From contig JAERRW010000005.1 of NCBI GenBank assembly GCA_016735235.1, positions 1 to 48,072 on the forward strand: a stretch of 48,072 nt of DNA. The letters are read 5' to 3'. This DNA comes from Sulfurospirillum sp. GTDB taxonomy: Bacteria; Campylobacterota; Campylobacteria; Campylobacterales; Sulfurospirillaceae. Made by a program: the position numbers and the translations under genes. The notes under the pieces are model-generated. The model searched no databases. It worked only from the letters and a program-made list of their open reading frames with translations, and was not told the origin of the DNA. Shown piece by piece: positions 5,699 to 10,549 of this stretch; the first letter of the stretch is position 1; every line of letters starts with the position of its first letter.

Positions 5699-6910
5699 AT
5701 GTTCGATGAAATACGGTTTAATACAATAGAGAGACTACCAAATTATGTCTTTACAGAGATAAATGAAATTAAGTTAAATGCAAGAAGAGCTGGTGAAGAT
5801 ATTATTGATTTTTCTATGGGAAATCCAGATGGAAGAACCTCTCAACATGTAGTAGACAAATTGATAGAATCTGTAAATAAAGATAAAACCCATGGATATA
5901 GTGCAAGTAAAGGAATCTATAAACTTCGTTTGTCAATTTCTAAATGGTATAGTAAAAAGTATAAAATTGATATTGATCCAAATTATGAAGCTGTAGTAAC
6001 TTTAGGGAGTAAAGAGGGTTATCTTCATTTAGTTCAAGCTATCACAAATCCAGGTGATGTTGCTATTGTTCCAGATCCCGCATACCCAATACATTCACAT
6101 GCTTTTATTATTGCTGGCGGTAATGTACATAAAATTGGTTTAGAGTGGAATGAGAAGTATGAGCTAGATACAAAAGTTTTTTTTAAAAATCTTAAAAAAG
6201 CTTTTGCCGAATCTGTACCTAAACCTAAATTTGTAGTAGTAAACTTTCCGCATAACCCAACAACAGTAACTGTTGAGAAAAGTTTTTATCAAGATCTAGT
6301 CAATTATGCAAAAAAAGAGAGATTTTATATTATTAGTGATATAGCTTATGCTGATTTAACATTTGATGGTTATAAAACCCCATCTATACTAGAAATTGAA
6401 GGTGCAAAAGATGTAGCAGTTGAGAGTTATACACTCTCAAAAAGTTATAATATGGCAGGTTGGAGAGTTGGTTTTATAGTTGGCAATAAAAAGCTTATAA
6501 ATGCGCTACAAAAAATAAAGTCTTGGTTTGATTATGGCATCTTTACTCCAATTCAGGTTGCTTCTATTGCGGCACTTGACGGTCCTCAAGAGTGTGTAGA
6601 TGAGATTAGAGATACATACAAAAAAAGAAGAGATACATTGCTGGAATGCTTTGAAAATGCTGGTTGGAAGATAGATAAACCAAATGCAAGTATGTTTATT
6701 TGGGCAAAAATTCCAGATGTTGCTATACATTTGGGTAGTATAAATTTTGCTAAAGAGTTGCTCATTAAAGCAAAAATTGCAATAAGTCCTGGAATGGGTT
6801 TTGGTGAAGCTGGAGAAGGGTATGTTAGAATTGCTCTTATTGAGAACGAAAATAGAATTCGCCAAGCGGCTAAAAATTTAAAAAAATATTTAAAGAGTCT
6901 AAAAAAATGA
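5699..6910 (+). CDS. Class I/II PLP-dependent aminotransferase (alanine/aspartate type)
   Basis: The product (403 residues) is a fold-type I aminotransferase. The PLP lysine is K248 in TLSKSYNMAGWRVG. NFPHNPTT (182-189) and SDIAYADL (213-220) carry the cofactor-binding Asn, Asp and Tyr, and R378 or so in the C-terminal EGYVRIAL stretch should bind the substrate carboxylate. The nearest familiar families are AlaC-type alanine transaminases and LL-diaminopimelate or aspartate aminotransferases; substrate cannot be settled by eye. It starts 3 bases after the preceding stop and overlaps hom by 4 bases (ATGA), so supply of an amino group for aspartate-family synthesis is plausible. Confidence 0.9.
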   Translation: MFDEIRFNTIERLPNYVFTEINEIKLNARRAGEDIIDFSMGNPDGRTSQHVVDKLIESVNKDKTHGYSASKGIYKLRLSISKWYSKKYKIDIDPNYEAVVTLGSKEGYLHLVQAITNPGDVAIVPDPAYPIHSHAFIIAGGNVHKIGLEWNEKYELDTKVFFKNLKKAFAESVPKPKFVVVNFPHNPTTVTVEKSFYQDLVNYAKKERFYIISDIAYADLTFDGYKTPSILEIEGAKDVAVESYTLSKSYNMAGWRVGFIVGNKKLINALQKIKSWFDYGIFTPIQVASIAALDGPQECVDEIRDTYKKRRDTLLECFENAGWKIDKPNASMFIWAKIPDVAIHLGSINFAKELLIKAKIAISPGMGFGEAGEGYVRIALIENENRIRQAAKNLKKYLKSLKK

Positions 6911-8181
6911 TAAAAGTAGGAATAATAGGTGTAGGAACAGTAGGGGCAAGTGTAGTAAAAATTTTAAAAGATAATAGTGATATTATAGAAGCAAGAAGTG
7001 GCAAAAAGATAGTTCCTGTAGTTGGAATAGTTAGAAATATTAGTCGTAATAGAGGAGTAAGTATTCCTCTTAGCACTAATGTAGATGATGTTTTAAAAAA
7101 TGATGATATAGATGTAGTCATAGAGCTTATGGGTGGTGTAAATGAGCCATTAAAAGTAATTAAAAATGCTTTGGAAAATGGAAAATCGGTAGTAACTGCA
7201 AATAAAGCTCTTTTAGCTTATCATCGTTATGCATTGCAAGATATTGCAGGAGAGCGAGCATTGGGATTTGAAGCGAGTGTTGCTGGTGGAATTCCTATCA
7301 TAAAGGCTTTAAGAGAAGGATTGAGTGCAAATCATATAGAGTCTATTAAGGGCATAATGAATGGAACATGTAACTTTATTTTAACAAAAATGATGAATGA
7401 GAAAGTAGAATTTAAAGATGTCTTAGAAGAAGCACAAAAACTTGGTTATGCAGAAGCTGATCCAGTATTTGATGTTGGTGGTTTTGATGCGGCACATAAA
7501 CTTCTTATACTTGCAAGTATTGCTTATGGGATTCATGCTAATCCAGAAGATATACTAATTGAAGGCATTGAGCAGATCAATAGTGAAGATATATTTTTTG
7601 CAAAAGAGTTTGGATATAGCATTAAGCACCTAACAATAGCAAAAAAATGCGATAATAAAAAAATAGAATTAAGAGTTCACCCTGCACTTGTTCCTACTTC
7701 ACAAATGATAGCTAAAGTAGATGGGGTTATGAATGGTATTAGTGTTATTGGTGATAGAGTTGGTGAAACTATGTATTATGGGCCGGGAGCTGGAGGAGAT
7801 GCAACTGCTAGTGCCGTGATAGCAGATCTTGTTGATATTGTTAGAGTAGGACAGAGTTCTCCTATGCTTGGGTTTAAAAGAGATTTAGAGGGCGGAGGAT
7901 TTACACTTTTAAATTCTGATGAGATTGAGACAAAATACTATATGCGAATAAAAGCTGCAGATGAGATAGGAGTTTTAACTAAAATAACTTCAGTACTTGG
8001 AGATTTTGGTATTTCGGTGGATAGTTTTTTGCAAAAACAAGATAAGCAAGATAAAAAAATTGCAACACTTCTTTTCTCTACACACACATGCAAAGAGTTA
8101 AATATACAAAAGGCCATGAAAGAGTTAGAAAAACTCCCTACATGTAAAGAGAAACCTGTTATGATTAGGATTGAAGATTAA
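6907..8181 (+). CDS. hom: Homoserine dehydrogenase with C-terminal ACT domain
   Basis: It reduces aspartate semialdehyde to homoserine with NAD(P)H, the branch toward threonine and methionine. The 424-residue protein has the nucleotide-binding GVGTVG near residues 7-12, catalytic-domain signatures MNGTCNFIL and GYAEADPVFDVGGFDA, and PGAGGDATASAV. From about residue 345 an ACT domain follows (KAADEIGVLTKITSVLGDFG), the usual site of threonine feedback control. The ATG overlaps the aminotransferase stop. In Campylobacter jejuni the next gene is yraN; here about 2 kb of other DNA intervenes, and the following reading frame starts inside the last codons of hom. Confidence 0.97.
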   Translation: MIKVGIIGVGTVGASVVKILKDNSDIIEARSGKKIVPVVGIVRNISRNRGVSIPLSTNVDDVLKNDDIDVVIELMGGVNEPLKVIKNALENGKSVVTANKALLAYHRYALQDIAGERALGFEASVAGGIPIIKALREGLSANHIESIKGIMNGTCNFILTKMMNEKVEFKDVLEEAQKLGYAEADPVFDVGGFDAAHKLLILASIAYGIHANPEDILIEGIEQINSEDIFFAKEFGYSIKHLTIAKKCDNKKIELRVHPALVPTSQMIAKVDGVMNGISVIGDRVGETMYYGPGAGGDATASAVIADLVDIVRVGQSSPMLGFKRDLEGGGFTLLNSDEIETKYYMRIKAADEIGVLTKITSVLGDFGISVDSFLQKQDKQDKKIATLLFSTHTCKELNIQKAMKELEKLPTCKEKPVMIRIED

Positions 8182-8290
8182 AAAGCAAAGAAAATATCGT
8201 CTATTTGTAAAATGGGCAGGTGGCAAAAGAGGTGTAGTAACTCAACTGTTAGGAAAATTTCCTAAAAAATTTGAAGATTTAATAAGTAAA
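8171..8290 (+). pseudogene. Amino-terminal relic of a D12-class (Dam-type) adenine DNA methyltransferase
   Basis: The TTG-started frame overlapping the end of hom reads KYRLFVKWAGGKRGVV then TQLLGKFPKKFED. This is the start of D12-class N6-adenine methyltransferases: E. coli Dam begins FLKWAGGK and then a leucine-rich stretch ending in a proline (HLPK). In a real enzyme the next residues would lead to the EPFVGAG AdoMet motif. Here the similarity stops at about codon 36 (position ~8278) and the frame runs on into a KAP NTPase. I read this as the scar of a former methyltransferase gene that lay directly after hom and was lost or replaced, with the join falling in frame. The relic is too short to have activity. 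Confidence 0.7.
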
Positions 8291-10123
8291 ATGAAAGAAG
8301 CAATTATAAAACTAAATGGGCTAAAAGGCGACGAGTTGCATGAATTAGAAAAGAAATATGAAAGTACAGAAATAGAATATTTAATAAAAAATCTTGATAA
8401 TTTACTTAATTTGAAAAATAAAGATGGTATTGTGGTAAGCATTAAAGGCCCTTGGGGCATAGGGAAGACTTTTTTTTGGAATCATTATATTGAGAGAAAC
8501 GTAGATAATAATAAGTTTGTAAATATCTCTTTATTTGGCATCCATGCACTAGAAGATATAAAAAAGAAAATCATATTAAAAATTTACGATAGTAACAAAA
8601 TAGCAAATTTTATCAAAAATAATCCTATCATAGATATGATTATCGACAAAAAATTGGGACTAGATGCTTCGGTGATAGCAGGAAGTTTCGAGAAAAAAGA
8701 TTTTGATAATATAGTTATATGTTTTGATGATTTTGAAAGAATATCACCAAATTTGAGCTTATCAGAAGTGCTTGGATTTATATCTGAGTTAAAAGAGAAA
8801 AATCATTGCAAAATAGTACTCATTAGCAATAATGATATGCTTAAAAGTCAAGATCACTTAAATCATAAAAAATTTATACGAAAAGATAAAGATGATAAAC
8901 TTGTAGAGAGGTTTTTTCAAACTCAAACAAATAATCAAGAGATATTTAACAAATATAGTGAAAAAATTATTGATTTAGAATTGGTTTATAATCCTCATTT
9001 AAAAGATATTATATCATTTTTAAAGCAGAATTATAATAATGAAAATTTTATAGATTGGAGTTTATTAGAAAAACTATTCAGTTTAGTAACGGATAAAAAT
9101 AAAAAGTTCAATATAAGACTAATAACAAAAGTTATTTTAAAACTGACATTATTTAAAAAAATATTACTAGACAATGATATTGTTGATAGCATCAAAAATG
9201 CTATTTTAATTAGGCTCTTTAAGGGGATTGTTGATGATAAAAAAATAAAATATACATATTTTAATGTTGAGCATACCATGCCACATAATACAAAAGGTAT
9301 ATTTAGAGATGTTATTGAAAAGCATTATTTGAAAATTGATAATTTTGAGAGTACATTGCGCCAGTTTAATAATGCTATTAAGACAGACACTACAAATCAA
9401 GCACTCAAAGATAATATAAATAAAACTTTTGAACGGTATTTGTATGACTTGCAGTATGATGATAAAACTTTTGTAGATGATTTCTATAATTTGTTAAATA
9501 GTGATGGTATAGACATTAGTAAACTTATTGGTTTATCTAATTTTGAAGCATATATTAGTAATTATTTAATGAAATTAGACGAAATAAATAGTGAAAAATA
9601 TAAAAATATGTTTTTGAATAAAGCAAAATTATATATTAAAAATAATCTAGAGCATATCTCCAGTTTAGATATGCTTGATAGAAATGGTTTCAATGAAATA
9701 TTAAATGATTATGGTGAGCTAAATACTTTTTATGAAGATAAAAAGAAAGAAAATATCGAAAAAGATATAACTTCTGAAGCAGACATTATAAGTATATTAA
9801 AAAAATTTAAAAAAGATGGTAGAACTATTAGTAATGAAGGCAGATTAGCAAATATAAATATCGCTAATCATGCTAAATTTATGATAGAGAATAGAGAGTA
9901 TTTTAAACTTACAATTGATTTTATGGATAGGGCGAATGGGTTCGCAGGTGATAAACCTTATAAAGCATTTTACGATTTAACTATCGAGACATATAAGAAA
10001 CTTAAAGTTTCTGATGATAATAAGTATAAATTTAAAATTGAACTTTTATTGGAACATTTAAAAGTAGGTTTTGAATTAAAAGAAGATATAATTAAACATC
10101 AACATAACTGTAAAGCTACTTGA
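8171..10123 (+). CDS. KAP-type P-loop NTPase, candidate anti-phage protein, fused in frame to a methyltransferase relic
   Basis: The frame encodes 650 residues; from the internal ATG 8291 it would be 610. After the methyltransferase-like first 36 residues comes a P-loop NTPase domain. Walker A is GPWGIGKT (93-100), Walker B is IVICFDDFER (181-190), and a sensor-like IVLISNND lies at 215-222. The GxWGxGKT form and the DD-F/L-E/D-R Walker B are typical of KAP NTPases, a family that includes the phage-exclusion protein PifA. I see no membrane helices. Residues ~260-650 are polar, helical and unrecognised. The native start is probably ATG 8291, although it lacks a clear ribosome site; the TTG could work by coupling to hom translation. 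A defence role is inferred from family and insertion context only. Confidence 0.8.
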   Translation: MKIKKQRKYRLFVKWAGGKRGVVTQLLGKFPKKFEDLISKMKEAIIKLNGLKGDELHELEKKYESTEIEYLIKNLDNLLNLKNKDGIVVSIKGPWGIGKTFFWNHYIERNVDNNKFVNISLFGIHALEDIKKKIILKIYDSNKIANFIKNNPIIDMIIDKKLGLDASVIAGSFEKKDFDNIVICFDDFERISPNLSLSEVLGFISELKEKNHCKIVLISNNDMLKSQDHLNHKKFIRKDKDDKLVERFFQTQTNNQEIFNKYSEKIIDLELVYNPHLKDIISFLKQNYNNENFIDWSLLEKLFSLVTDKNKKFNIRLITKVILKLTLFKKILLDNDIVDSIKNAILIRLFKGIVDDKKIKYTYFNVEHTMPHNTKGIFRDVIEKHYLKIDNFESTLRQFNNAIKTDTTNQALKDNINKTFERYLYDLQYDDKTFVDDFYNLLNSDGIDISKLIGLSNFEAYISNYLMKLDEINSEKYKNMFLNKAKLYIKNNLEHISSLDMLDRNGFNEILNDYGELNTFYEDKKKENIEKDITSEADIISILKKFKKDGRTISNEGRLANINIANHAKFMIENREYFKLTIDFMDRANGFAGDKPYKAFYDLTIETYKKLKVSDDNKYKFKIELLLEHLKVGFELKEDIIKHQHNCKAT

Positions 10124-10161
10124 TTTTGGGTGAATAAATCAAAAGATTATAACTTTTTACT

Positions 10162-10167
10162 TATAAT
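10162..10167 (+). promoter_or_regulatory. Candidate -10 box (TATAAT) for yraN
   Basis: A TATAAT hexamer lies in the 99-base gap after the KAP gene, preceded by a T-rich run, and 56 bases before the yraN start. It would let yraN and the genes after it be transcribed apart from the inserted gene. The rest of this gap holds no recognisable gene and no trace that I can see of the missing methyltransferase C-terminus. Confidence 0.4.
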
Positions 10168-10222
10168 GCATGAATACTTGTTTGTTTTTAGAAAATAAAT
10201 ACCGTATAAAAGGAAATTAATT

Positions 10223-10549
10223 TTGAGCTTAGCGGTAGGATTGAAGGCAGAGAAGAGAGCAGTAGAGTACTTGCAAGGCACTGGATACTCTATTTTTGAA
10301 AGAAATTTTCATTCTCGTTTTGGTGAGATTGATATAATTGCTTTGAAAGAAGATATTTTGCACTTTATTGAGGTGAAATACTCAAAAGATTATGATGCTC
10401 TTACAAGAATTACACCATCAAAATTAAAAAAAATTATTAAAACTATAGACTACTACATGTGTGTAAAAAACATAGATATTGATTATCAGTTAGATGCGCT
10501 TATTATAAACAATAAGTCAATAGAGATTATAGAAAATATCACTTATTAA
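10223..10549 (+). CDS. yraN: YraN/UPF0102 family protein (endonuclease-like fold)
   Basis: This 108-residue protein has the conserved UPF0102 pattern: an N-terminal GLKAEKRAVEYL helix, RFGEIDIIA (32-40) with D37, and HFIEVKY (47-53) with E50 and K52, which together form a PD-(D/E)XK-like constellation. No biochemical role is firmly established for the family, though a nuclease link to recombination or DNA handling is often assumed. The start is TTG 10223, supported by AGGAA at 10211-10215 seven bases upstream. In Campylobacter jejuni yraN directly follows hom and precedes trxA, so its separation from hom here marks an insertion. Confidence 0.92.
   Translation: MSLAVGLKAEKRAVEYLQGTGYSIFERNFHSRFGEIDIIALKEDILHFIEVKYSKDYDALTRITPSKLKKIIKTIDYYMCVKNIDIDYQLDALIINNKSIEIIENITY

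Follow-up and report, generated by a model that had tools for sequence, protein, structure and literature searches.

Layout of the locus

The window (the whole stretch of DNA analysed, 48,072 nucleotides) lies on a 48-kb contig (JAERRW010000005.1; C7 in our numbering of this genome, G000) of a 1.5-Mb, 106-contig draft genome of Sulfurospirillum sp. (GCA_016735235.1). An insert of about 2.04 kb lies between hom and yraN (Table 1). It carries a chimeric open reading frame (ORF; 8171 to 10123, TTG start, 650 amino acids, N-terminus MKIKKQRKYRLFVKWAGGKRGVVTQLLGKFPKKFED) that overlaps the stop codon of hom. In four relatives from the genus, hom (74 to 86% identical) directly abuts yraN. Pieces of three restriction-modification (R-M) genes stand in the order of their parent operon, with a KAP NTPase gene among them: the 5′ end of a D12 methyltransferase gene, (the D12 3′ end), the 5′ end of a restriction gene (R), KAP, and the 3′ end of a second methyltransferase gene (M2).

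Table 1. Features of the insert and its flanks (positions in the window)
Feature	Position	Strand	Basis
hom (homoserine dehydrogenase), left flank	6907..8181	+	ORF; stop codon 8179-8181 overlaps start of D12 remnant
D12/Dam-class adenine methyltransferase, 5′ remnant (codons 1-35, TTG start)	8171..8275	+	D12 HMMs and DNA alignment
D12 last codons, (E)DLISK, tentative	8276..8290	+	GAAGATTTAATAAG here, GAAGTTTTAATAAGG at the D12 3′ end of L141
MutH-like restriction endonuclease, 5′ remnant (MKEAIIKLNGLKGDELHELEKKYE; ATG 8291, about 23 codons)	8291..8362	+	purpose-built HMM
KAP-family P-loop NTPase, almost complete (runs from about codon 2 and ends a few codons short of the native stop)	8354..10057	+	PF07693, PDC-S49, homologues
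M2 (N6_N4-type methyltransferase), 3′ remnant before the nonsense codon (LKVGFELKEDIIKHQHNCKAT)	10056..10120	+	protein and DNA alignment
TGA stop of the chimeric ORF, a nonsense-mutated codon of a conserved M2 glycine	10121..10123	+	alignments
M2 remnant, continued in the same frame (FWVNKSKDYNFLLIMHEYLFVFRK, then stop)	10124..10198	+	PADLOC PDLC03376 MTase_II
Short spacer with ribosome-binding-like AAAAGGA ahead of the relocated yraN start	10199..10222	+	sequence; missing from relatives, whose hom and yraN overlap
yraN (UPF0102), right flank	10223..10549	+	60-75% identical yraN in four genus relatives

In the relatives (L006 to L009), yraN starts within the hom stop with TTG, one of them (L008) being without a standard start codon; through the insert, yraN acquired an AAAAGGA site of its own, and its new start is a TTG at the equivalent codon. 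A promoter scan gave no excess over shuffles, and a plasmid search with the junction DNA gave no match.

Methyltransferase and nuclease remnants

An earlier note on this DNA, made from its letters, had read the head of the ORF as the start of a lost D12-class methyltransferase that begins at the TTG overlapping the end of hom and is fused in frame to a KAP NTPase. This reading held. Residues 1 to 45, scored on their own because so short a stub goes undetected in a long protein, matched TIGR00571 (positions 3 to 30, E = 8e-4) and, in PADLOC, oMTase (E = 1.1e-5) and MTase_II (E = 2.1e-5; positions 3 to 33), so that the D12 match on which the earlier note had made its reading of residues 1 to 40 depend was found; the full-length ORF gave no D12 match in Pfam or NCBIfam. 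The stub begins with the K-W-x-G-G-K of the D12/Dam class and is 57 to 61% identical, over 30 to 31 residues, to D12 genes of its own genome and of other genomes of the family. Its DNA aligns with two intact D12 genes (L091 and L029) as far as TTTGAA, position 8275. The EPFxGxG S-adenosylmethionine (SAM) motif, whose absence the earlier note had pointed out, and the DPPY catalytic motif are both missing and homology stops at codon 35; the D12 piece is therefore a remnant, not an enzyme. A PDB sequence search with the stub placed DNA adenine methylases at the top with a nonsignificant E of 0.4. The own genome also retains an intact D12 gene (L041, contig C75), followed by a DndB-like gene and a 201-amino-acid ORF, and three further D12-family genes (contigs C34, C3, and C37).

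Since KAP homologues start at the equivalent of residues 62 to 65 (see below), residues 37 to 63 are neither D12 N-terminus nor KAP. This segment scored 68 (BLOSUM62) against the nuclease start of L030, compared with 54 for the best of 5,000 shuffles. A hidden Markov model (HMM) built from the N-termini of three D12-linked MutH-like R proteins (L078, L030, and L141/L157) was run on 9,840 six-frame peptides of the window and of the other loci retrieved; its top match was the window ORF (E = 3.8e-5; next, 2.7), with 28.2 bits for the segment against at most 14.1 among 20,000 shuffles; this purpose-built model alone detected the stub, and PADLOC, Pfam, and PDB gave no match. By these scores, residues 41 to 63 are the start of a MutH-like restriction gene, a short stub of about 23 codons. 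The 15 nucleotides ahead of it are probably, if tentatively, the last D12 codons, which an internal deletion of about 260 codons would have joined in frame to the D12 start; our confidence in this piece is lower because it is short (about 14 nt). The join keeps the frame, as the earlier note had it, and is more complex than the single fusion it placed at 8278 to 8290, with a MutH-like stub lying between. The note's start of KAP at residue 41 has to be moved to about residue 62 to 65, residues 41 to 63 being the MutH-like start.

The 3′ scar, missed in the earlier note, lies at the other end of the ORF, where LKVGFELKEDIIKHQHNCKAT is followed by TGA; the M2 proteins of relatives (PF01555) end in HNCKATGFWVNKSKDYNFLLIMHEHLFVFRK. 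The protein sequence before the nonsense codon is identical or nearly so to the C-termini of these M2 proteins, and its DNA aligns with L030 and L029. Directly after the ORF stop, and in the same frame, FWVNKSKDYNFLLIMHEYLFVFRK matched PADLOC PDLC03376 MTase_II up to the end of the profile (positions 226 to 249 of 249, E = 6.2e-6); 50 residues read across the TGA matched positions 206 to 249 (E = 3.9e-17). A conserved M2 glycine codon, GGA in L029 and GGT in L030, is TGA here (GGA to TGA), and the M2 frame runs past it to a TAA at 10196 to 10198. On these matches, residues from about 630 to 650 together with the in-frame stretch to 10198 are identified as the C-terminus of M2, about 45 codons. 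When the whole ORF was run against 44 family genomes, it returned KAP genes and two sets of short matches, residues 6 to 36 to D12 genes and residues from about 598 to 650 to the C-termini of proteins of about 250 amino acids; D12-type and M2-type matches were 2 to 3.3 kb apart on one contig in four of these genomes. What was lost is hence larger than the earlier note supposed: the gene replacement that it proposed is supported, and it removed a cassette of three genes (D12, MutH-like nuclease, and M2) rather than a single methyltransferase.

The KAP NTPase gene

Between the scars, the frame becomes that of a KAP NTPase, as the earlier note had also read it. The ORF matched KAP_NTPase PF07693 at 31.9 bits (Pfam gathering cut-off, 20) and PADLOC PDC-S49 at E = 1.9e-21 to 3.8e-21, the latter with partial coverage (residues 74 to 473 against positions 12 to 429 of a 624-position profile); a match to PifA was confined to Walker A. 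Walker A (GPWGIGKT, 8447 to 8470) and Walker B (IVICFDD, 8711 to 8731) are present, and G93, G96, G98, K99, T100, D186, and D187 are invariant in an alignment of six KAP sequences. The closest homologue is 54% identical and belongs to a Sulfurimonas sp. metagenome-assembled genome (L112); Arcobacter vandammei was among the genomes searched (G317, locus L114). The domain looks intact and probably acts as a single-gene anti-phage NTPase of the PDC-S49/PifA class, a defence role suggested by its family.

The nearest homologues (L112 to L115) start at MKYxSxE, which corresponds to residues 62 to 65 of the window ORF, and the two joins cost KAP roughly its start codon and last few codons. In an AlphaFold model, pLDDT was mostly 70 to 92 for residues 61 to 633 and below 50 for residues 1 to 35, 49 to 60, and 634 to 650, in an alignment of KAP homologues and the window protein only, which had little depth at the ends. 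These drops in confidence match the remnant boundaries independently. In a Foldseek search against PDB, the model had weak AAA+ matches only, with none reaching E ≤ 0.001. Annotation of the protein should leave the first 62 or so and the last 21 or so residues out of its functional portion.

The KWAGGK leader might instead be a native N-terminal domain of the NTPase that resembles D12 by chance or through an ancient fusion, and the ORF is indeed open from the TTG at 8171 through KAP. This idea, which the earlier note had named among those that would refute its reading, is refuted by the survey of KAP homologues: of 40 KAP loci in the order, not one has KWxGGK upstream, and it is likewise missing from the four nearest homologues in the collection of genomes, whose starts correspond to about residue 62 to 65. 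Two more pieces of the same operon also follow in the expected order, and AlphaFold confidence for the leader is low. We regard a native leader as extremely improbable. D12, R, M2, or DpnI stubs were found beside none of the other KAP genes (40 loci of the order and 28 of the collection).

Parent operon and empty site

Operons of the parent type occur in relatives and consist of D12, a variable restriction gene (DpnII family PF04556, DUF6996/6997, or MutH family PF02976), sometimes an ORF of about 95 amino acids, and an N6_N4 methyltransferase gene, M2 (PF01555). Three other Campylobacterales genomes hold an intact D12-MutH-M2 operon in the gene order of the remnants (L078, L030, and L157; the contig of L157 begins within D12). 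At hom-yraN itself, where the earlier note had suggested looking for an intact methyltransferase, none was found among the 42 informative genomes of the family; the junction was empty in 41 of them. The window allele was seen in one genome only, in a public search that covered one genome per species, and neither an intact cassette at hom/yraN nor intermediate steps were seen.

The empty junctions indicate that a cassette entered hom/yraN and was then gutted and refilled; together with KAP homologues that have no KWAGGK, they point to insertion of a whole R-M cassette whose interior KAP later replaced. Taking the identities and order of the remnants, the empty site, the intact KAP motifs, and the parent-type operons together, we consider it highly probable that the hom-yraN insert is a fossil GATC-type R-M cassette (D12, MutH-like endonuclease, and M2) whose interior was replaced by a KAP NTPase gene. 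The ancestral cassette at hom/yraN is itself reconstructed from the remnants. As we picture the order of events, a whole GATC R-M cassette would have inserted between hom and yraN, and a KAP gene would then have taken over its interior, with the frame left open at both joins.

Because the upstream joins hold one frame, we infer that KAP is translated as a chimera. Translation would begin at the TTG at 8171, probably coupled to termination of hom, or at the former nuclease ATG at 8291, and would end at the nonsense codon inside M2; coupling of the chimera to hom is plausible from the overlap. The methyltransferase ends would supply start signals, not enzyme activity.

The unique allele and the draft state of the assembly (106 contigs) could also be explained if an R-M cassette had been joined in assembly to a KAP gene of another organism in the sample. 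The joins, however, lie within coding sequence and keep the frame, one remnant carries a nonsense mutation, and the rest of the assembly contains neither the KAP nor the M2 piece. Similar scarred loci are, moreover, present in at least ten other genomes. An assembly chimera is accordingly very improbable in our judgement.

Scarred loci in other Campylobacterales

DpnI cuts methylated GATC and is incompatible with an active GATC methyltransferase. Full-length DpnI genes (PF06044) were found at 22 loci in a 399-genome sample of the order, and nine of the 22 are preceded by a D12 5′ stub, followed by an M2 3′ stub, or both, with correct order and strand (genomes G010, G044, G085, G091, G119, G155, G230, G287, and G367; loci L086, L088, L089, L090, L094, L098, L107/L108, L042, and L076). 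In G287, the M2 stub sits at the start of another contig. The count of nine is a lower bound, because it depends on the tblastn threshold (E ≤ 0.01) and on contig ends. The D12 breakpoints at these loci range from codon 31 to codon 171, so the events were mostly independent, or the stubs have eroded to different lengths.

Two further loci show other outcomes. In G077 (contig C19; L149/L087), decayed 3′ remnants of D12 and M2 surround a gene resembling NsnA/PD-T4-2_A (E = 9e-68 and 2e-53) and, in the same slot, a 150-amino-acid ORF that has no PADLOC match. In G054 (contig C128; L154, 95 to 622), the 5′ end of R is fused in frame to the 3′ end of M2 with no payload, a kind of deletion that could precede an allele like that of the window. 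The KAP gene of the window is one of several defence payloads that lie between the ends of this cassette, and similar wreckage next to other defence genes of related bacteria suggests that defences are swapped in this way repeatedly.

How much of this pattern reflects selection can be argued in two directions. On one reading, the cassette was deleted piecemeal and KAP landed by chance, its frame being coincidental and the scars without function. The varying D12 breakpoints are as expected for independent illegitimate events; G054 shows an in-frame R::M2 deletion without a payload; and frameshifted D12 pseudogenes adjoin fragments of a DpnII-type or DUF6997-type restriction gene at L109 and L110, which are other decaying cassettes of this kind. 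Yet defence genes recur exactly between the scars (DpnI, the PD-T4-2/NsnA-like gene, and KAP), which suggests replacement in place. We put random decay not far short of an even chance.

The other reading extends our best explanation and shares its origin: the D12 stub would have been kept under selection as an upstream-coupled start that drives the payload, and the scars would serve as leaders, perhaps also as recombination arms, of a defence slot with exchangeable contents. Every upstream join in the window keeps the frame. Of the eight loci with a D12 stub and DpnI, six have a stub frame that stays open over 42 to 259 codons and terminates at the start codon of DpnI (TAATG or ATGA); at 11 DpnI starts with no detected D12 stub, no more than 23 codons are open in that phase. 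Intact operons show the same arrangement, a TAATG overlap of D12 stop and R start (L078 and L141). Against this, the G155 stub is broken by stops and that of G085 ends early, and recent truncations are open anyway. Six of eight by phase alone has a probability of about 0.02 (binomial estimate), which is suggestive, and no proof, of selection for translational coupling. We hold this reading tentatively, as a possibility clearly short of even.

A still wider generalization would make the Campylobacterales GATC R-M cassette a general-purpose defence slot, in which the methyltransferase ends are kept as translation leader and recombination arms, the interior is exchanged among restriction nucleases, DpnI, the PD-T4-2/NsnA-like gene, and KAP NTPases, and a cell could leave R-M in one step without the usual killing. 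This we offer as speculation, on the doubtful side. The in-frame fusions and stop-start overlaps do turn the role of the stubs as translation leaders into a testable claim. For studies of the loss of addictive R-M systems and of defence-gene turnover at fixed sites, the pair of D12 5′ and M2 3′ scars is a searchable signature; such sequence remnants, beyond the presence or absence of genes, reveal both the replacement in place of one defence by another and the type of the parent operon.

Relation to known systems

In pneumococci, DpnI and DpnII are alternative cassettes at one site. Strains carry one or the other of these two GATC systems (PMC3573125), and in some strains of Neisseria a DpnI-like nuclease gene, drg (dam replacing gene), lies inside dam at the leuS/dam locus and truncates it (PMC4269198). 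These precedents mean that it is not new in kind for another defence gene to take the place of a GATC methyltransferase.

The window resembles drg in that a truncated dam-type methyltransferase flanks the payload in both. It differs in that drg is a Gm6ATC nuclease of the DpnI family whereas the payload here is a KAP NTPase (no PF06044 match was found in the own genome), and in that the window retains remnants of three R-M operon genes in frame with the payload. The pneumococcal dpnC and dpnM-dpnA loci are alike in that DpnII, too, has two methyltransferases, but in Campylobacterales cassettes have been replaced at many genomic sites, by genes set between fragments of both methyltransferases. 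Minimal mobile elements are alternative gene cassettes set between conserved genes of transformable bacteria, and the drg/leuS locus has been likened to them (PMC4269198); the window shares the setting of a small defence cassette flanked by conserved housekeeping genes, but its exchanged segment is flanked by pieces of the previous occupant, and homologous exchange is only a possibility. PDC-S49 and other KAP proteins share its intact Walker motifs but not its chimeric, R-M-derived ends. A limited search of the open-access literature found no KAP payload, three-gene in-frame fossil, or recurring D12 5′/M2 3′ scars in Campylobacterales, and within that search the KAP payload and the multigene in-frame fossil appear undescribed.

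GATC is rarer than expected in the window as a whole (71 sites, against 114 expected from dinucleotide shuffles; standard deviation, 10.6), as it would be if the lineage had lived with GATC restriction.
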